Positions 8,846 to 43,087 of a DNA stretch of 64,000 nucleotides are shown in pieces. A program made the position numbers and the translations under genes. The stretch is from Luteitalea sp. TBR-22 (GTDB lineage: Bacteria > Acidobacteriota > Vicinamibacteria > Vicinamibacterales > Vicinamibacteraceae), in the NCBI RefSeq assembly GCF_016865485.1, contig NZ_AP024452.1:62001-126000 (forward strand), given 5' to 3'. The notes below the pieces were generated by a model. The model saw nothing but the letters and a program-made list of their open reading frames with translations. It had not been told where the DNA came from and did not search any database. Numbering within the stretch: position 1 is the stretch's first letter; each line of letters opens with the position of its first letter.

Positions 8846-8901
8846 TGAAGTTCGAAGGATGAAGTACGAAGGCCGACGGCCGAATGACGAAGGCCGACAG
8901 T
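8846..8901. repeat. heptad (7-bp period) array overlapping the next gene's start
   Basis: Seven consecutive 7-mers from 8846 to 8894: TGAAGTT, CGAAGGA, TGAAGTA, CGAAGGC, CGACGGC, CGAATGA, CGAAGGC, then CGACAGT reaching the GTG start at 8900. The phase is unbroken. It occupies the place of the leader and ribosome-binding site of the PD40-amidohydrolase. Confidence 0.7.
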
Positions 8902-11900: not shown

Positions 11901-12145
11901 AGGCGCTGCAGGCGGCGACGATTGCCGGCGCGCAGTACCTCGGGCTGGACAAGGACCTCGGGTCGCTCGAGGCCGGCAAGCTCGCCGACCTGGTGGTGCT
12001 CGACGGGAACCCGCTTGTCGACATCCGCCAGAGCCAGACGGTGCGGATGGTGATGGTCAACGGCCGGCTGTACGACGCCGCGACGCTGAACCAGCTCGCA
12101 CCCGTCGCACAGGAGCGCCCGAAGCTGTATTGGGAGCGTAACTAA
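8900..12145 (+). CDS. secreted PD40 beta-propeller amidohydrolase
   Basis: 1081 aa. A signal peptide (MNRMIPTRPLVLSLAVLFALGVAPSA) is followed by TolB/PD40-type propeller repeats (many copies of SPDGxxI/FSPDGxxIA between about residues 60 and 600). From about 680 there is a metal-dependent amidohydrolase barrel: the metal ligands of GIIDAHAHLG lie near residue 731 and the usual C-terminal segment GSLEAGKLADLVVLDGNP is present. Such two-domain proteins are common in Acidobacteriota and Bacteroidota and are often annotated as peptidase-like amidohydrolases; the substrate is not predictable. The GTG start has no Shine-Dalgarno sequence; a heptad array lies directly upstream. ATG 8909 is an alternative start. 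Confidence 0.88.
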   Translation: MNRMIPTRPLVLSLAVLFALGVAPSAQQTQPAAADASKKDAPWDVAAPLGPTQVLSFETDEGTWMNVDVSPDGRTIVFDLLGDLYTMPIAGTGSGLATRISSGPAFDMQPRFSPDGKRIAFSSDRNGLWNIWVMQADGSGATQVSKEARWFVNSPTWAPDGLSIYARKHFVRQRSLGSGEIWQFHVAGGEGLQVTEKNGWQKDTGEPAVSPDGQVLYFSKDVTPGDTFEYNKNPFGTIYAILRRDLKTGRERTVTGGTGGAITPRVSPDGKSLAFIRRVDTGSRLFVRDLATGLETPVFDGLDKDLQEAWAVHGVYAQYAWLPDGSGFVIWGKGKIWRVDLAKKAGTPIPFRANVEQTVNEALRFQREVHPERFAVRMLRHVKVSPDGRSVVYSALGHLYVRALPSGEPRRLTQDAAHEAWPSFSPDGRSIAYVTWDDQAKGRVRVIGVDGQGARDVVATPGHYASPSFSPDGASIVYRATGADVDRELAYAVDPGIFVVPAAGGTPRKVTDGGQEPLFNRDGTRIFLRDRRGDQSVLRSVTLEGGDEIVHVQSENAIQIVPSPDNKWVAFTERFKTWVMPFPATGRPATIAAGSTAYPIAQVSRDAGFSLHWSADSRRVHWTLGPELFTRELTKTYAFIEGGDATPAPPETAGVNIAFTTAADVPTGEVAFTDARVITMAGNNRREVIERGTVVVRGNRIVAVGAAGKVSIPAGARRIDAAGKTIMPGIIDAHAHLGGPGDGLIPKANWPLMANLAFGVTTSHDPSNDTETIFTVAEMVRSGAIVGPRVFSTGTILYGAETPFKAVVASLEDARSHMRRMKAAGAFSVKSYNQQRRDARQMIIKAAREHEMLVVPEGGSLLYYNETMMLDGHTGIEHNLPVPNLYKDVTTLFARSGLGYTPTLIVSYGSQSGENYWYQRDDVFRNERLLTFVPREVVLPRARRRGMSSEDDYAHVLVSKGAKAVLDAGGKVQLGAHGQLQGLGAHWELWMLQQGGMTNHEALQAATIAGAQYLGLDKDLGSLEAGKLADLVVLDGNPLVDIRQSQTVRMVMVNGRLYDAATLNQLAPVAQERPKLYWERN

Positions 12146-12220
12146 CGTTTAACGTTTAACGTGTAACGTGCAACGCCAGACGCCAGACGCCAGACGCCAG
12201 ACGCCAGACGTCAAACGTCA
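12144..12220. repeat. heptad array of RACGYYN units filling a convergent intergenic gap
   Basis: Eleven uninterrupted 7-mers: AACGTTT x2, AACGTGT, AACGTGC, AACGCCA, GACGCCA x4, GACGTCA, AACGTCA. The first AA belongs to the TAA stop of the upstream gene. The last unit ends one base before the sulfatase stop codon (12222-12224, minus strand), so the array is the entire space between two convergent genes. Confidence 0.85.
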
Positions 12221-12221
12221 G

Positions 12222-13733
12222 TTACTGATACGTCCACTTCAGCACCCACGGGTCCGACGTGCGCTCCTGGAAGGCGCGGAGCCGGGCCTTGTAGGTGGCC
12301 AGCGTCTGCGCGTGCCCGGGGTCGTTCGCGAGGTTGCGCGACTCGTGGGGATCCTGCTCGAGGTCGTACAGCTCGAACTCGTCGCGCTGCACGTAGCGCC
12401 CGACGGTGCGCTTGCCGTAGGAGGCCTCGGCGCCGCCCTTCCACGCCGACTGCCAGGTGGCCGACGACCACAGGTCGGTGGAGAACGGGAAGGGCAGTTG
12501 CCAGGCTACGTTCCAGATCAGCTTGTAGCGCCTGTCCCGCACCACGCGCATCGGGTAGTACATCTGGATCTCGTGGAAGGTGTGCGACGCATACACCTCG
12601 TCCCACCCGGTGAGCGGCTCGCCGCGCATGGCCGGCAGGAACGATCGTCCGTGCAGCCCGTGCGTCTCGGGCAGCGTGGCGGTGGCCCGCACCTCGCCGC
12701 TGGCGATGTGCTGCTTGTACGTCGGCGACGTCGCGCCGGCCGCCTCGAGGATCGTCGGCGTGATGTCCACCCAACTCACCATGGCATCGGAGGTCACGCC
12801 CCGTCGCTGCGCCTGCGGATGCCTCACGATCAGTGGTGATCGGAGGCCGGGCTCGTAGACGGTCGTCTTCGCGCCAGGGAACGCGGCGCCGTGGTCCGAG
12901 AGGTAGACCAGGAGCGTCCGCTCGTACACGCCGGCATCCTTGAGCACCTGCACCATGCGGCCCACGCCCTGATCGAGGCGCGCGATGGACTGGTAGTACT
13001 GCGCCAGTTCGGCGCGCGTGGCCGGCGTATCCGGCAGCCAGGCCGGCACCACGACGTTCGCGGGATCGAACGTCACGGTCTGCACGCCCGGGTAGCCCTC
13101 CGGGCGATTCCCGAAGCGGTCGGGGCCGGTCTTCGTGCCGTCCGTCGTGCCTCCGCCGCGATGCGGATCGGAGGTCGCGATGTACAGGAAGAACGGCCGC
13201 GCGTCGCGGGCACTCACGAAGGCGCGCGTACGCTCGGCCATGTCCACGGTGTTGCGTCCGTCGGCGCCGAGCACCTGCTCGAACCTGTAGGTGTCGGCGG
13301 GGGCGACGTGGAACTTGCCGATGCGCGCCGTGCGGTAGCCCGCCTCCTGCAACAGCACCGGCAGCGGGCGCAGGTTGGCGTAGCTCTGGAAGTGGCTGTA
13401 GTCGTGCTCGTGTCCGTACTGCGCCGTGCGGTGGTTGTGCAGCCCGGTCAACAGCACCGATCGACTCGCGCTGCAACTCGCGGTGGTCGCGTACGCATGC
13501 GGGAAGCGCACGCCCTCGGCCGCGAGCGCGTCGAGATGCGGGGTCTTCACCGCGGGGTTGCCGTACGCGCCGGTGTCCTGCCCGTGGTCGTCGGCGACGA
13601 ACACCACGATGTTCAGGCGCGGCGTTGGCACGGGCGTCGTGCCCTGCGCGAAGGCGGTGCTGGTTGCGGCGACCACGCCGAGGCAGAGCCACGACGCGAC
13701 GAGGCAGGCGACGGTCCGATGGAGGAGCGGCAT
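12222..13733 (-). CDS. secreted sulfatase (alkaline-phosphatase superfamily)
   Basis: 503 aa with a signal peptide (cleavage near AFAQG). It hydrolyses sulfate esters outside the cytoplasm. The N-terminal metal site FVADDHGQD is followed by the type I sulfatase core SCSASR: Cys87 is the residue converted to formylglycine, within the C-x-P/A-x-R signature. Later SDHGAAF supplies another metal ligand pair. The C-terminal region (YELYDLEQDPHESRNLA) is the standard end of arylsulfatase-A-like and heparan N-sulfatase-like members. No formylglycine-generating enzyme or anaerobic maturase lies in the window. The substrate is unknown; soil polysaccharides or glycosaminoglycans are possible. Confidence 0.92.
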   Translation of the reverse strand: MPLLHRTVACLVASWLCLGVVAATSTAFAQGTTPVPTPRLNIVVFVADDHGQDTGAYGNPAVKTPHLDALAAEGVRFPHAYATTASCSASRSVLLTGLHNHRTAQYGHEHDYSHFQSYANLRPLPVLLQEAGYRTARIGKFHVAPADTYRFEQVLGADGRNTVDMAERTRAFVSARDARPFFLYIATSDPHRGGGTTDGTKTGPDRFGNRPEGYPGVQTVTFDPANVVVPAWLPDTPATRAELAQYYQSIARLDQGVGRMVQVLKDAGVYERTLLVYLSDHGAAFPGAKTTVYEPGLRSPLIVRHPQAQRRGVTSDAMVSWVDITPTILEAAGATSPTYKQHIASGEVRATATLPETHGLHGRSFLPAMRGEPLTGWDEVYASHTFHEIQMYYPMRVVRDRRYKLIWNVAWQLPFPFSTDLWSSATWQSAWKGGAEASYGKRTVGRYVQRDEFELYDLEQDPHESRNLANDPGHAQTLATYKARLRAFQERTSDPWVLKWTYQ

Positions 13734-13839: not shown

Positions 13840-14271
13840 TCAGCCGATCACCGTCAGGTGCCCTGCGTCTGCCGACGGTACGGCGCGCAGCGGTACGTGC
13901 TGGTCGAAGGTCACGAAGCGCCCGCCCCGCGCGGCTGCGAGTGCGAGCAGGTAGGCGTCGGTGGCGTGGCGCGAGGTCAACAGCTCCGACCAGCGGACGG
14001 TGTCGGCCGCGAGCAGGTCGGTGTCGGCGCTCCAGAACTCGTGGTGGGGCGTTGCGGCCGCGGCCTGCAGGCGCTCGGCGACCTGTGCGGCCGGCTGCAT
14101 GTTCGGATATGCCGACTGCGCCATCACCCGGATGCAGCCGAGCTGCGTGAGCGGGCAGGAGGCCCAGCCGTGCCCGATGTGATCGGCCAGCCACCGGCTC
14201 GCCAGGTGGTGGTGGACGTGTGCCGCGTCGAGCAGCGCGATCAGGACGTTGACGTCGAGTAACCCCCGCAT
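13840..14271 (-). CDS. VapC-type PIN-domain ribonuclease toxin
   Basis: 143 aa. A PIN-domain endoribonuclease that would cleave RNA when freed from its antitoxin. The first acidic residue is in LLDVNVLIALLD, and the C-terminal acidic cluster lies in RHATDAYLLALAAARGGRFVTFDQ. Its ATG overlaps the antitoxin stop by one base (TGATG on the minus strand), the usual coupled arrangement with the antitoxin first. Members with the LLDVNVLIAL start are often called TA-system VapC family ribonucleases. Its RNA target cannot be predicted. Confidence 0.88.
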   Translation of the reverse strand: MRGLLDVNVLIALLDAAHVHHHLASRWLADHIGHGWASCPLTQLGCIRVMAQSAYPNMQPAAQVAERLQAAAATPHHEFWSADTDLLAADTVRWSELLTSRHATDAYLLALAAARGGRFVTFDQHVPLRAVPSADAGHLTVIG

Positions 14272-14516
14272 CAGACCCCGTCGCGGTCGCGCAGGTCGTC
14301 GATGACCTCGTTGGTGACGAGCGTCTTGCCCGGCGGAAAGGGGCGGAATCCGAAGACGACGGGCCTGTCGCGGATGTCGCCGAGTTCGGCCGGCGGGCTG
14401 GTGAGGGCCCGTCGCGCGAGCAACGACAGCATCTCGCCGGCGGTCAGGCCCTCTTTCCTCGCAAGCGCCTTCACCGCCGCCAACACGTCGTCTTCGATGT
14501 CGAGAGTGGTTCGCAT
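14271..14516 (-). CDS. ribbon-helix-helix antitoxin (VapB-like)
   Basis: 81 aa. The start MRTTLDIEDDVLAAVKALAR is a ribbon-helix-helix DNA-binding fold; the acidic and proline-rich C-terminal half (PPAELGDIRDRPVVFGFRPFPPG) is the likely toxin-binding tail. ATG 14516 gives the length usual for this antitoxin class; the open frame runs further upstream but reads through REP-like repeats with no domain. It probably represses its own operon by binding just upstream, near 14517-14550 (GATGCTATCGCATC is a near-palindrome there). Confidence 0.82.
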   Translation of the reverse strand: MRTTLDIEDDVLAAVKALARKEGLTAGEMLSLLARRALTSPPAELGDIRDRPVVFGFRPFPPGKTLVTNEVIDDLRDRDGV

Positions 14517-19635: not shown

Positions 19636-21294
19636 GTGCACATCCAGGCTGCTCCGCGTGTCTACCCCGTGATCGTCGTCGGCTCCGGCGCCTCCGGGGG
19701 CATGGCGGCCTGGAACCTCACGCGGCAGGGCGTCGACGTGCTGATGCTCGACGCCGGCGAGAAGTTCGATCGCGCGACGTTCTGGACGCACGTCACGCCG
19801 TGGGAAGAGCGGGCGCGCCGGGCCCGCGGTGAGCGACCGCCCGAGTTCTTCCTCGACACGAAGGAGCAGCCCTACGTCACGCCTGAAGGACGTCCGTTCC
19901 AGCTCAATCGCGTGTGGGGGCTCGGTGGCAAGACCAACATCTGGGGCCGCGTGTCGCTGCGTTACAGCGAGATGGACTTCCGCGCCGGCGAGCGCGACGG
20001 CTGGGACATCCCCTGGCCGATCCACTACAGCGACCTGGCGCCGTACTACGACAAGGTCGACCAGCTTATTGGCGTGACCGGCGGCGACGACGACTCCGAG
20101 GTGCTGCCGGGGAGCAAGTACTTCCTGCCGTCGCCGAAGATGCGCTGCGCCGAGGTCGCCATGTGGCGCGCCGGCGAGAAGATCGGCATGCCGTTCGTGC
20201 GCGGGCGCCGCGCCAACATGACGCGGCCGGTGCGTGGCTTCCCGGCCTGCCACTACTGCGGCCAGTGCGGGCGGGGCTGCGACACCGCGTCGTTCTTCTG
20301 CTCGGCCGACCACCTCATTCCCGACGCCCTGAAGACCGGCAAGCTCGAGATCCGCTCCAACGCTGTCGTGGCGCGCATCCTCGTCGACGACAACGGGCTC
20401 GCGAAGGGCGTGCAGTACTTCGACAGGAAGACCGGCGCCGAGCGACAGGTGCTCGGCAAGGTCGTGGTGATGGGCGCCAGTTGCGTCGACACGACGCGCA
20501 TCCTGCTCAACTCGACGTCGACCCGCCACCCCAACGGCATCGGCAACGGCAGCGACGTGATCGGCCGCTACCTGTGCGAGCAGATCCGCCTGAACGCGCG
20601 CGGGTTCATGCCGTCGCTCTACGGCAAGGAAGCCACCGACGACAAGGGCATCAGCGGCGAGCACGTGTACATGCCGCGTTTCAACCATCGCCCCGAGCGC
20701 AAGCGCGACTACCTGCGCGGCTTCGGCATGCAGTTCTGGAACACCGGCACGAGCGATCAGGGCGCCGGGCACTACGCCCGCGGGATCAAGGGCTTCGGCA
20801 GCGCGTTCAAGGACGACGTCCGCAAGCGGTTCCCGGCCTACGTCGAGCTGCACCCGTTCGGCGAGGTGCTGCCGTACGCCGACAACCGCATCACCGTCGA
20901 CAAGGATCGCACCGACAGGTACGGCGTGCCGCTGCCGCGCATCGACTACACGACGCGCGAGAACGAGCGGAAGATGCTGGCGCACATGGCCGATGCGATC
21001 GAGGAGCTTGCGCACGCCTCGGGGATCGAGCTGTTCGACTACCGGCGGATGGAAGCCGATCGCAACGGGTCGGCCATCCACGAGCACGGCACCTGTCGCA
21101 TGGGCGACGACCCGCGCAAGTCGGCGCTCAACAGGTTCAACCAGATGCACGAGGTGAAGAACGTCTTCGTCGTCGACGGATCGTCGTTCACCGCCGCCTC
21201 GGAGAAGAACCCCACCATCACCATCCTGTCGCTCGCCTGGCGCGCGACCGATTACCTCGCCGAGGAGATGAAGCGCGGGAGCATTGACGTCTGA
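19636..21294 (+). CDS. GMC family FAD oxidoreductase with cysteine cluster, copy 1
   Basis: 552 aa. It oxidises an alcohol or sugar, reducing FAD. The dinucleotide fold [17 protein letters not shown] starts at residue 12. The substrate domain contains a cysteine cluster, [12 protein letters not shown], with a further FFC (spacing C-x2-C-x2-C-x3-C). The C-terminal GMC_oxred_C domain holds the catalytic His of HEHGTCRMG and the Asn of EKNPTITI. A comparable cysteine cluster binds 3Fe-4S in FAD glucose and fructose dehydrogenases, so an iron-sulfur relay is possible here. There is no Tat or Sec signal. Its stop codon lies inside a heptad array. A paralogue follows 109 bp later. Confidence 0.93.
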
Positions 21295-21313
21295 CGTCTG
21301 ACGTCTGACGCAC
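21286..21313. repeat. heptad array of GACGTCT units at the GMC copy 1 stop
   Basis: GACGTCT repeats three times from 21286 to 21306, followed by GACGCAC. The first copy supplies the last codons (Asp, Val) and the start of the TGA stop of the oxidoreductase. The unit belongs to the same RACGYYN class as 12144-12220 and 23058-23127. Confidence 0.75.
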
Positions 21314-21316
21314 TTC

Positions 21317-21379
21317 GCGTCGACCTGAAGGTCGACGCCTACGACACCAGGGCGTAGCAGCCGACCTTCAGGTCGGCTG
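21317..21379. repeat. inverted pair of REP family 1 elements
   Basis: The first copy lies on the minus strand: GCGTCGACCT, loop GA, AGGTCGACGC and CTAC (21317-21342). The second lies on the plus strand: GTAG at 21354, then CAGCCGACCT, loop TC, AGGTCGGCTG (21358-21379). Both 10-bp stems are perfect and the GTAG heads face each other. The pair lies between the two GMC genes. Confidence 0.8.
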
Positions 21380-21391
21380 GCAGGGTCGGCG

Positions 21392-21397
21392 TAGAAT
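21392..21397 (+). promoter_or_regulatory. -10 element of a probable leaderless promoter (GMC oxidoreductase 2)
   Basis: TAGAAT followed by six C residues and GTG 21404. The spacing is the same as upstream of copy 1. Confidence 0.5.
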
Positions 21398-21403
21398 CCC
21401 CCC

Positions 21404-23059
21404 GTGCACATCCAGGCGGCTCAGAAGGTGTACCCCGTGATTGTCGTCGGCTCCGGCGCCTCCGGAGGAATGGCCGCGTGGAACCTCACGCGGCAGGGCG
21501 TCGACGTGCTGATGCTCGACGCCGGCGAGAAGTTCGACCGCGCCACGTACTGGACCCACGTGAGCCCCTGGGAAGCACGGGCGCGGCGAGCGCGTGGAGA
21601 GCAGCCCCCGCCGTTCCAGCTGAGCACGAAGGAGCAGCCGTACCTCACCGGCGAGGGGCAGGACTTCGAGCTGATCCGCGTGTGGGGGCTCGGCGGCAAG
21701 ACGAACATCTGGGGCCGCGTGTCGCTGCGCTACAGCGAGATGGACTTCCGCGCCGGCGAACGCGATGGCTGGGACATCCCCTGGCCGATCCACTACAGCG
21801 ACGTGGCGCCGTACTACGACAAGGTCGATCAGCTCATCGGCGTATGCGGTGGTGACGACGACTACGACTCACTGCCGGGAAGCAAGCACTTCCTCCCGCC
21901 ACCGGCGATGCGATGCGCGGAGGTGGCCATCTCGCGCGCCGGTGAGCGACTGCGCATGCCGTTCGTCAGGATCAGGCGCGCCGTGAAGACCGTGGCGCAC
22001 AACGGCTTCCCGGCGTGCCATCACTGCGGGCAATGCGGCCGCGGCTGCGACACCGCCTCGTTCTTCTGCTCGGCCGACCACCTGATCCCCGACGCCCTGA
22101 AGACCGGCAAGCTCGAGATCCGATCCAACGCCGTCGTGGCGCGCATCCTCGTCGACGACAACGGGCTTGCGAAGGGCGTGCAGTACTTCGACCGGAAGAC
22201 CGGCGCCGAGCGGCAGGTGCTCGGCAAGGTCGTGGTGATGGGCGCCAGCTGCGTGGACACGACGCGCATCCTGCTCAACTCGACATCGCGCCAGCATCCC
22301 AACGGCATCGGCAACGGCAACGACGTCATCGGCCGCTACCTGTGCGAGCAGGTGCGCTTCCATGCCCGCGGCTTCATGCCGTCGCTGTACGGGTCGGCGA
22401 CGCGCGACGACCGCGGCATCGGCGGCGAGCACACCTACATGCCGCGCTTCAACCACCGCGACGGCCATCGGCGCACCGGCTACATCCGCGGCTTCGGCAT
22501 GCAGATGTGGAACACCGGCTGCAGCGCCGAGGGCGCCGGGCACGTCGCCGGCAGGCTGGGCGGCTTCGGCGCGGGCTTCAAGAAGGAGGTACGGCGGCGC
22601 TACCCGGCGTGGGTGGAGATGCACCCGTACGGCGAGGTGCTGCCGTACCGCGACAACCGCATCACCGTGGACCCCTCACGCACCGACCGCTACGGCGTGC
22701 CGCTGCTGAAAATCGACTATCGCATCCGCGAGAACGAGCGGACGATGCTCGAGCACATGTGCGACAGCGTCGAGGCGCTGGCAAAGGAAGCCGGCATCGA
22801 GCTGGTCGACTACAAGCGCGGCGCGGTGGATCGCAATGGCTCGGCGATCCACGAGCACGGCACCTGCCGCATGGGCGACGACCCGAAGCGATCGGCCCTC
22901 GACAGGTTCAACCGCATGCACGAGGTGAAGAACCTGTTCGTCGTCGACGGCTCGTCGTTCACCAGCGCGTCGGAGAAGAACCCCACCATCACCATCCTGG
23001 CCATCGCCTGGCGGGCGACTGACTATCTGGCCGAGGAGATGAAGCGGGGGAATCTGTAA
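21404..23059 (+). CDS. GMC family FAD oxidoreductase with cysteine cluster, copy 2
   Basis: 551 aa, a tandem paralogue of the preceding gene with the same start ([21 protein letters not shown]), cysteine cluster [12 protein letters not shown] and GMC C-terminal motifs ([17 protein letters not shown]). Similarity is mosaic. About 88 residues after the second cluster cysteine are identical between the copies, whereas the stretch before it (residues about 175-205) and the part after residue 300 differ clearly. This suggests gene conversion. Different substrate-domain residues imply different substrates or a heteromeric partner. It ends in a TAA that opens another heptad array. Confidence 0.93.
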
Positions 23060-23127
23060 CGTTTAACGTTTGACGTTTGACGTTTGGCGGTTAACGCTTG
23101 ACGTTGCCGCGATGACGCCGGGCGCCG
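23058..23127. repeat. heptad array of RACGYTT units after GMC copy 2
   Basis: Ten 7-mers in unbroken phase: AACGTTT x2, GACGTTT x2, GGCGGTT, AACGCTT, GACGTTG, CCGCGAT, GACGCCG, GGCGCCG. The first AA is part of the TAA stop. It leads into the REP pair at 23146-23211. Confidence 0.8.
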
Positions 23128-26001: not shown

Positions 26002-26008
26002 GCCGCGC

Positions 26009-26090
26009 GGATCGGGTTCGCGGATCGGGGATCGCGAATCGCGGATCGGGAATCGGGGATCGGGGATCGGGATCGCGGATCGCGGATCCG
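26009..26090. repeat. heptad array of RATCGSG units
   Basis: About twelve 7-mers such as GATCGGG, AATCGCG and GATCGCG run from 26009 with one 6-bp unit near 26072. The array starts 8 bp after the receptor stop and runs directly into a REP element. Confidence 0.75.
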
Positions 26091-26145
26091 TAGCCGTCGA
26101 CATCGCAAGAGCCTTCCGTAGCCGTCGACATTCATGTCGACGGTC
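26089..26145. repeat. REP family 1 elements (one partial, one complete)
   Basis: A partial copy, CCGTAGCCGTCGACAT, begins at 26088-26089. A complete copy at 26116-26145 has GTAG, CCGTCGACAT, loop TC and ATGTCGACGG, a perfect 10-bp stem. Confidence 0.75.
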
Positions 26146-26184
26146 AGCGATCATTCACGGCATCGCCGCCCCGCGGCGCTTCGC

Positions 26185-40654: not shown

Positions 40655-43087
40655 TCAGCGCCGTCGCCCACCACCGCCGCGACGCATGCCACCGCCGTAG
40701 CTGCCGTAACTGCCGCTGCGCGGCACGCTGCTGCCGCCGCTCCTGTAGCTGCCCTGGTCGCGCGTCCGTTGGCTACCCTCGGCCCTCGCCCGCGCGTCAC
40801 GATCGAGCTGGCTGGTGGTGGCGCGATCGGCGGGCGCCGGGGACGGGCTCGTCTCGGGTCGGGTGGTCCGCGGCTGCTGGTCGGGGCGGGGCCCCGGCTG
40901 CCTGTCGGTGTTCGACCAGTCGCCGTTGTCGTACTTCTGCCATGTGCCGTCCTGGCGACGATAGACGTTGCCATCCCGACCGGCATACACGTCGCCGCTG
41001 CTGCCGACGCCCACCGCGCCCTGATCGCCGCGCCGCGTGATTGCCGCGCCATCGTCGGTCCGGATCGTCCGGGTGGTGGTGCCGGTACGACGGTTCGTAT
41101 AGCGCTGGGTGGCCGCCCAGTCGTCACCGCGCTGGACCGCCGTCGATCCCCAGCTGCCGTAGACGTTCGATCCCTGGCGCGTCCCGGCGTACGTCCCGGT
41201 CCGAGGGTTGTAGGCGTGAGCAACCCCACGCGCGCCGTAGGGACCATAGGCTGCGGCGCCGCGCGCATAGGTGCCGGTGCGCGGGTTGTAGCGCGCACCA
41301 ACGCCGGCCCCGCCATAGGGTCCGTAGACCGCGGCGCTGCGCCCATAGGCACCGGTCCACGGGTTGTACCAGGCGGAGTACCCGTAGGTGGGGAAGTGCG
41401 GGTAGTAGTACGGATACATCCCGCCGTACCCCCAGTACGGCGGGTAGTACCAGCCGGTCCCCCAGACCGCGCAGCCCCACGCCACCATCATGCCGGTGTA
41501 TCCGGCCGCCGCGGCAAACACCACCCAGTCATCGTCATCGTCGTCCTCGACGGTGACGTAGGTGACGTGGTGCGCGGGCGAACTCGCGGGAATCTGGTAG
41601 ATCGCCTCCGGCACCGACTCGGCGACCTGCCACGGACCGGTCGCGGTCTTGCCGACGAACCACACGCCCTGGTAGCACATGTAGTAGGCATCGCCGACCT
41701 TGAACACGTCCTTGTCCGTGTTCACGGCGCGCGTCACCGTCGTCTTCTCGATCGGCGCGAACTGCGCCGCGTCGCCGTTGTAGGTCACCTCGGGTGCCAC
41801 CAGCGTCTTCTTGTTGACGCGAGCCGTCTCCGGGACCGACGCGAGCAGGACCGCCTCGGCTGCCTGATCGGTGCCCGGCACCGACGCCAGGACGCGCGAG
41901 CGCTCGTGCTCGAGCGGGATCTTCTTGAAGTCCTCCGGCAACGACGGCGTCGCGAACGACCATGGTCCGCTGAAGTCCGGCGCCGAGAACCAGCGGCCTG
42001 CGACGAGGTAGTACACAGTGCCGGCCTTGCCCACCCGGAAGACGTCGCTCTCGGTGTTGCTGACCCACAGCAGCTGCGACGCGCCGGGGACGGCGACGTA
42101 GCGGGGCGCGCCGGTCAGCAGAATCAGCTCGCCTGGTGTGGTGGCCAGGAACACCTTCGGCGCCGCGGTGAGCTTTCGCCCCGGCAGCGCCGCCTTCACC
42201 TGAGCCCAGTTCTGGTCGGCCGGCAACTTCCCGAAGCTGCTCGGCAGGGTGCCCGCAGGCAGCCAGGGACCCTTGATGTCGGTCGAGGTGAGCCACGCGT
42301 CGTCGTTGCGGAGGTAGAGCGTCTTCGTGGGCGTGTGCTGAAAGAGGTCCCAGTTGGTGTTGACCACGTACTTCAGGTCGTTGTCCTTGATGGGACTCCA
42401 GATCGGATCGCCGTCGAGGTTGACCACCACCGCCGGGGTCGTGCTGAAGAAGATGGTCGGCGGGTCGGCCTTGAGGCCCTCGACGTTCCTGGGCACCACC
42501 TGGCTCTTGTCGATGTACGCCAGCACGCGGTCGAGCGCGATGACCCGCTCGTCGTTCGGGATCGCCTTCTCGATCGCCGCCGTCAGATCCCGCACCTGCT
42601 CCCTGGGAAGCGTCTGGAAGTTCGCCTCGGCGATGTCGATCGGGTCGAACTTGACCAGACGGTCGGACACCGAGGCGCGCGTCCTCGCCTCGAGTCGAAT
42701 CGTTCCCAGGACCGGCTTGCCGGTGGCCTGTGCCGACGCCCGGTAGGCCACTGCGCTGTAGGCCACCATCTGTCGCTGGTCTCGCCAGCTCGCGATCTGC
42801 GGTTGGTACACCACGATGCTGCCGCCGCTCGCGAGCGGGTAGGTGCGCGGCCAGCCGCCGTCGATTGACGTCGCGTCGGCGGCGCCGGTCCCGGGCGGAC
42901 GCGTCGCGGCGGCTGCACCCGTCGGCGGCCTCTGCCCCGCGCCCTGTGCGCCCGCTGCGACGGCCGTCGAACGTGTGGGCGTGGGCGGCGATTGCGCCGC
43001 AGCGACAATCAGCATCGAGGGATCGAGCAGGAGGCTGACTGCGGCCACAGCGGCTACGGCGGATTCGGCGGGCTTCTTTCGACGCAT
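40655..43087 (-). CDS. large secreted protein with YNPRTGTY repeats
   Basis: 810 aa from ATG 43087 (MRRKKPAESAVAAVAAVSLL, signal peptide). Residues about 60-560 form repeated units in which short WFxGxDFSGPWSFA/SPLPEDFKKIP and TKTLYLRNDDAWLTS/TDIKGPWLPAG motifs recur, each with VFKVGDAYYMCYQGVWFVGKTATGPWQVA-like ends. Then comes a hydrophobic Trp/Tyr-rich stretch (WGCAVWGTGWYYPPYWGYGG), followed by tandem YNPRTGTYARGAAAYGPYG repeats and a Gly/Ser/Arg-rich tail. Related proteins in Acidobacteriota and Proteobacteria are sometimes labelled carbohydrate-binding family V/XII, without functional evidence. It is divergent from the 43453 gene. Confidence 0.7.
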   Translation of the reverse strand: MRRKKPAESAVAAVAAVSLLLDPSMLIVAAAQSPPTPTRSTAVAAGAQGAGQRPPTGAAAATRPPGTGAADATSIDGGWPRTYPLASGGSIVVYQPQIASWRDQRQMVAYSAVAYRASAQATGKPVLGTIRLEARTRASVSDRLVKFDPIDIAEANFQTLPREQVRDLTAAIEKAIPNDERVIALDRVLAYIDKSQVVPRNVEGLKADPPTIFFSTTPAVVVNLDGDPIWSPIKDNDLKYVVNTNWDLFQHTPTKTLYLRNDDAWLTSTDIKGPWLPAGTLPSSFGKLPADQNWAQVKAALPGRKLTAAPKVFLATTPGELILLTGAPRYVAVPGASQLLWVSNTESDVFRVGKAGTVYYLVAGRWFSAPDFSGPWSFATPSLPEDFKKIPLEHERSRVLASVPGTDQAAEAVLLASVPETARVNKKTLVAPEVTYNGDAAQFAPIEKTTVTRAVNTDKDVFKVGDAYYMCYQGVWFVGKTATGPWQVAESVPEAIYQIPASSPAHHVTYVTVEDDDDDDWVVFAAAAGYTGMMVAWGCAVWGTGWYYPPYWGYGGMYPYYYPHFPTYGYSAWYNPWTGAYGRSAAVYGPYGGAGVGARYNPRTGTYARGAAAYGPYGARGVAHAYNPRTGTYAGTRQGSNVYGSWGSTAVQRGDDWAATQRYTNRRTGTTTRTIRTDDGAAITRRGDQGAVGVGSSGDVYAGRDGNVYRRQDGTWQKYDNGDWSNTDRQPGPRPDQQPRTTRPETSPSPAPADRATTSQLDRDARARAEGSQRTRDQGSYRSGGSSVPRSGSYGSYGGGMRRGGGGRRR

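Follow-up and report, generated by a model that had tools for sequence, protein, structure and literature searches.

How does a run of 7-bp units come to occupy the whole of the gap between two convergent genes: by a single insertion, or by repeated copying in place? The question is posed by a 64,000-nucleotide stretch of the Luteitalea sp. TBR-22 genome (hereafter the window), in which eleven 7-bp units at 12144-12220, uninterrupted and in exact 7-bp phase, fill a 76-bp gap from stop to stop. The first unit has AA in common with the TAA stop codon of an amidohydrolase gene (12143-12145), the last ends at 12220, and the single base 12221 separates it from a sulfatase gene whose stop codon lies at 12222-12224 on the minus strand. 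Both the exact phase and the filling of the gap between convergent stops had been claimed in a sequence-only reading of the locus, and both hold: the period-7 score of the array is 55, against a maximum of 18 and a mean of maxima of 11.6 when the 64-kb window was simulated 100 times under a Markov-3 model. The unit proposed in that reading, RACGYYN, is correct for nine of the eleven heptamers and fails for units 3 and 4 (AACGTGT and AACGTGC), which carry G at position 6; the looser RACGYNN fits all eleven.

Adjacent units of the focal array differ on average at 0.8 positions, a value that rises to 2.23 once their order is shuffled (p = 1.5e-4), and the same test gives p < 0.05 in 28 of 39 longer arrays, with a pooled adjacent mismatch of 1.33 against 2.31 permuted. 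Because neighbouring units are more alike than their permuted counterparts, these results support repeated local duplication with drift, as had been suggested from the drifting sequence and fixed period, over one insertion followed by independent mutation; slippage and unequal recombination look alike to this test. We consider it likely that the focal array is a heptanucleotide simple-sequence repeat which has grown by slippage-like local duplication and is tolerated in intergenic DNA.

Comparable arrays are not confined to one gap, and the expectation that period 7 is enriched in intergenic DNA beyond the focal locus is borne out by a sample covering 13% of the genome and by whole-genome pattern counts. 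The TBR-22 assembly (G000) is a single contig of 6,468,984 bp, of which we scanned 864 kb de novo (the window plus 40 evenly spaced 20-kb stretches). This sample contains 83 period-7 segments, with none at period 7 in the Markov-3 control; among the other periods from 2 to 13, period 8 yields 12 segments and each remaining period at most 8. Scaled up, the sample gives about 600 period-7 arrays, and the genome probably holds several hundred. Although 88% of the sample is coding, 69 of the 83 arrays lie outside coding sequence (38 in tandem gaps, 22 in convergent gaps, 7 in divergent gaps and 2 at stretch edges, with 14 in predicted genes). Genes were called with a purpose-written caller, which returns 816 genes per Mb; the published TBR-22 count of 5,364 corresponds to 829 genes per Mb (PMC8852301). 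Across the whole genome the pattern (RACGYYN)3-RACG has 166 + 154 matches, against 0 + 1 for its reversed control. The RACGYYN array is thus found genome-wide, but as only one among many heptamer families: the 83 arrays include GGGAGTC (21), ACCGGGC (GGGCACC-type, 8), AGGGCTC (GGGCTCA-type, 7), GACGTTT (6) and others.

Two side observations concern other loci of the genome. Period-8 arrays (AGAATTTC, CTGCAATT) occur at L145:11954-12126, L135:6037-6095 and L155:6034-6079, one pair being inverted. In the convergent gap at L123:5276-5490 the two stops carry different arrays (TGACGTY and ACTCCCG), and the gap also contains a long, perfect-looking palindrome and a second hairpin ending T-rich.

Four further period-7 segments lie within the window itself, at 8847-8897, 21285-21310, 23057-23103 and 26015-26088 (Table 1). 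Two adjacent GMC oxidoreductase paralogs occupy 19669-23059, and a RACG-type array ends each of them and supplies its stop codon.

Table 1. Period-7 arrays of the window and the genes that flank the focal array.
Feature	Position	Strand	Remarks
Focal heptamer array	12143..12220		11 units at 12144-12220 plus the preceding T of the TAA stop
Upstream gene: beta-propeller (PD40) and amidohydrolase protein, 1081 aa	8900..12145	+	TAA stop overlaps unit 1
Convergent gene: sulfatase, 503 aa	12222..13733	-	stop one base from the array
TGACGTC array	21285..21310	+	includes the stop codon of the GMC oxidoreductase gene ending at 21294; score 19, barely above the simulated maximum
TAACGTTT/GACGTTT array	23057..23103	+	the GMC oxidoreductase gene ending at 23059 uses the array's first TAA as its stop codon
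GGATCGC/GGATCGG array	26015..26088		within the convergent gap 26002-26184
Weak degenerate period-7 segment (GAAGGNC)	8847..8897		two bases before the amidohydrolase start; score 18, equal to the simulated maximum

Arrays are not scattered at random within the gaps that contain them. With a score threshold of at least 16, 47% of the intergenic arrays of TBR-22 (n = 77) lie at most 5 bp from a coding boundary, against 15% when they are placed at random in the same gaps; the corresponding values are 31% of 48 arrays against 13% in the relative G001 (7,480,314 bp), and 37% of 19 against 18% in G004. RACG-family arrays often contribute, as their TRA, the stop codon of the adjoining gene. Counted from the gene end, unit 1 begins at -2 in 17 of 35 genes that terminate in a sense RACG array, a set whose loci were partly targeted; in 4 genes it begins at -9, in 2 at -16, in 1 at -23, and in the remaining 11 at other positions. 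Any array that runs into a gene end is bound to show a stop codon in this phase, whereas the preference for unit 1 follows from no such constraint.

The arrays are also oriented with respect to genes. Scoring array ends no more than 50 bp from a boundary by whether the G/T-rich strand reads away from the gene (a G+T skew index, outward if it does), we counted 60 outward, 6 inward and 5 even in TBR-22, where the background over all gap ends is itself mildly outward (396 vs 289); the index gives no polarity in G001 (18 outward, 17 inward) or G004 (7 and 4). A family-wise test, adopted only after this null result in G001 and G004 and to be read accordingly, finds consistent orientation in 50/52, 25/26 and 10/10 arrays of TBR-22, G001 and G004 (families with at least two members), against random expectations of 34.9, 18.7 and 7.5. 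Leave-one-out prediction over 108 arrays leaves 28 not scorable and is concordant for 73 and discordant for 7 (46 and 4 at stops, 27 and 3 at starts). Orientation at starts predicted from stops only is concordant in 25 cases and discordant in 1, and orientation in G001 and G004 predicted from TBR-22 in 10 and 1. These cases are not fully independent, as families are partly related, and the gene starts come from our own caller. Within the RACG family alone, T-rich ends point outward at stops (27 vs 5), while at starts the T/A index shows no polarity (5 vs 7).

Such polarity is familiar from G-rich heptamers, and it raises the possibility that the arrays act through G-quadruplexes, as has been considered for the GGGNATC repeats of Xanthomonas and Nostoc. 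Several TBR-22 families do consist of GGG plus four nucleotides (GGGAGTC, 21/83; GGGCACC-type, 8; GGGCTCA-type, 7), and both place and polarity agree with what the relevant passages of PMC4692102 describe. The focal RACGYNN units, however, have no GGG tract, and families without GGG or CCC retain the polarity under leave-one-out prediction (40 concordant vs 6 discordant; 12 and 3 at their starts alone), which makes a quadruplex-based role very improbable.

A second alternative is that the arrays are RNA hairpin elements which end or protect the transcripts of convergent or consecutive genes, and some individual gaps would fit this well. For RNA read from the sulfatase strand of the focal gap the folding energy is -37 kcal/mol (z -4.36), the gap with inverted GGGAGTC arrays at L146:8447-8593 reaches a z of -7.08, and convergent and tandem gaps together hold 22 and 38 of the 83 arrays. 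Yet folding of the 80 nt downstream of stops is no stronger where an array is present (mean z -1.11, n = 54) than where it is absent (-1.17, n = 260; p = 0.71) in a comparison restricted to gaps of at least 80 bp, and so excluding the focal 76-bp gap, and the antisense strand folds slightly less with an array (-0.69 vs -1.17, p = 0.047). The same polarity, moreover, is seen at start codons, the plus-strand RNA of the focal array is unremarkable (z -1.10), and a search for intrinsic terminators (a G+C-rich stem followed by a T run) gave 0 sites at 12000-12400. The comparison of ends with and without arrays leads us to reject a general terminator role, though single gaps fold very well, and we regard the hairpin account as unlikely; the strong fold on the sulfatase strand may still point to a local RNA role in the focal gap. 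Given no extra folding at arrays and no terminator-like site at this locus, we take the array to be a tolerated repeat, presumably without function.

Finally, a small mobile element might occupy the intergenic gaps, with the arrays as its terminal inverted repeats. Like units stand inverted at both gap ends at L146:8447-8593 and in the G004 ortholog of the focal gap, and in 5 of the 12 TBR-22 gaps with two arrays the outward units are at most one base apart, against 17% across gaps. None of the four double-array gaps in G001 has such matching units, however, and 100 of 121 array-bearing gaps hold one array only, with polarity kept in these gaps alone (47 concordant, 5 discordant); in the focal gap itself the array reaches from one stop to the other and leaves no interior. 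The pairing signal is weak and the single-array gaps contradict the mobile-element account, which we regard as highly improbable. Inverted pairs of heptamer arrays with quite different units were also seen in other genomes, at L267, L276 and L254 in Acidobacteriota and, in a planctomycete, at L074.

Growth by local duplication remains the reading we prefer. Units would duplicate locally, most likely through replication slippage in a 7-nt register, with slippage as the presumed enzyme-level cause; point variants would arise and be amplified along with their neighbours, so that sequence would drift from unit to unit and from species to species with the period fixed at 7. Such growth would be tolerated in intergenic DNA and would stop at coding boundaries, and where TRACGTT units meet a gene end a unit would provide the stop codon. 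That the arrays have no selected function is our inference, as is the explanation of why the period is 7. Fixed polarity with respect to the nearest coding boundary counts against this account, as slippage alone does not predict it, and suggests a further factor. One-sided growth towards the gene predicts more uniform units next to it and was not supported in any of the three genomes (in TBR-22, 21 vs 20 and 5 ties among 46, p = 0.29; in G001, 7 vs 5 among 15, p = 0.69; in G004, 1 vs 3 among 5). It is conceivable, though we would give it no great chance, that an orientation-aware process other than G-quadruplex formation builds or keeps arrays at gene edges, with each family pointing in a single direction away from the nearest coding sequence, at both starts and stops, in three Luteitalea genomes, and with the unit at a given gene end replaced over time such that only period, place and direction persist.

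Comparison with congeners shows how readily the unit changes, albeit at a handful of sites judged partly by eye. At the amidohydrolase end, RACGTTT units in TBR-22 correspond to GGCCTTG and GCATTAG units in G001, to weak ACCGGGC-like units in G003, and to AATTCAG units, inverted at both stops, in G004. The convergent neighbour in G004 is a 91% identical sulfatase; in G001 and G003 a GMC-oxidoreductase relative follows the amidohydrolase, so only the gene end is comparable. The GMC oxidoreductase ends have other units in G001, and in G004 other units at one of the two and none at the other, while the orthologous stops of the convergent gap with the array at 26015-26088 are almost adjacent in G004. 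Since the unit differs or the array is missing at orthologous ends in three congeners, turnover appears to be fast.

Beyond these relatives the distribution is patchy. A search of 60 genomes (TBR-22 included) for (RACGYYN)3-RACG matched in 15 and in none of the other 45, with 364 matches in G001 (control 23), 45 in G057 (control 4) and 38 in G023 (control 0). Once N is excluded, period 7 leads among periods 3-13 in G004, with 19 segments in 326 kb, and also in small samples of G007, G055, G057, G064 and G068, each with its own units, though the choice of contigs was partly biased; 20 kb of G020 contained no period-7 array. In the first contigs of 20 further genomes of the phylum (316 kb) period 7 again leads, with 10 segments, one a poly-G artefact, but these fall on only 4 of the 20 loci, one of them the artefact. 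Across 80 loci mostly from other phyla, 862 kb (N excluded) held 4 period-7 segments. Of 297 genomes of the phylum, 8 contain the exact GACTCCC array, mainly TBR-22 (123), G001 (19) and G217 (10); the reversed control is found in G107 (24).

Heptanucleotide repeats in cyanobacteria are named STRR, and several tandem heptanucleotides occur per genome there, as in Luteitalea, in another phylum and with other units. For Calothrix, the passages of PMC4692102 on this subject cite a report of three heptanucleotides. More generally, among long repeats, heptanucleotides are reported to outnumber every other class in most genomes of prokaryotes (Mrazek et al. 2007, as recounted in passages of PMC4679880 and PMC4692102), and one proposal recounted in PMC4679880 is that 7 nt is the polymerase contact length. 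The prokaryotic LSSR5-11 of Mrazek et al., as these passages present them, resemble the Luteitalea arrays in their tandem 7-bp units at many, mostly intergenic sites in large free-living genomes; Luteitalea differs in having many related families per genome and strong drift within arrays, and the recounting passages do not name Acidobacteriota. The focal array is probably an LSSR: its 7-bp units exceed chance, such arrays occur at many, mainly intergenic sites, and variants are spread between neighbours.

The closest parallels in place and direction are the G-rich GGGNATC heptamers of Xanthomonas and Nostoc, for which quadruplex formation was considered (Rehm et al. 2015, PMC4692102). According to the passages on these repeats, they too form dispersed intergenic arrays, on the sense strand near stops and the antisense strand upstream of starts, have inverted pairs (frequent in Xanthomonas, few in Nostoc) and vary in unit between species; four units are preferred, whereas our score threshold removes short arrays. 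The focal unit, by contrast, lacks a G tract and cannot form a quadruplex, and in Luteitalea the families that contain GGG and those that lack it share the polarity. The TAACTGA direct repeats of marine Beggiatoaceae (MacGregor 2015, PMC4679880) are described in the passages concerned as having stop codons in all three frames and often touching gene ends, as TAACGTT does here; they lie mainly just upstream of starts and comprise one unit, with related heptamers rare, whereas Luteitalea has many families, and the focal unit is TAACGTT/GACGCCA, not TAACTGA. A term search of PMC7015867 returned no heptamer passage.

The sequence-only reading had known of no description for this lineage, and we likewise found none among the open-licence papers listed for heptamer or tandem repeats in Acidobacteria, Luteitalea or Vicinamibacter, or for heptameric repeats in bacterial genomes at large. 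Heptamer arrays are already known from Xanthomonas, Nostoc and Beggiatoaceae, and Luteitalea (Acidobacteriota) joins these bacteria with an unusually varied set of units; what it adds is that variety, together with a polarity that extends to units lacking a GGG tract and to both starts and stops. With period, place and direction constant and the unit variable, the genus can separate sequence-bound explanations (a G-quadruplex or a protein site) from those based on a 7-nt register or on gene edges, and TBR-22, a cultured duckweed isolate, makes a direct test of why bacterial repeats favour 7 bp possible.

The window contains several other features. REP-like palindromes (GTCGACCTGAAGGTCGAC and CCGTCGACATTCATGTCGACGG types) lie in intergenic gaps at 21316-21343 and in the 26118-26152 region, and short matches to these positions reappear at numerous listed sites in G001 and G004 as well as in other TBR-22 gaps. 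A 78-bp tandem repeat of 2.2 copies spans 41196-41368. At 13840-14516 on the minus strand, a small protein with no Pfam match is immediately followed by a PIN-domain protein (Pfam PIN, E 5.8e-9), and the two look like a putative VapBC-type toxin-antitoxin pair.
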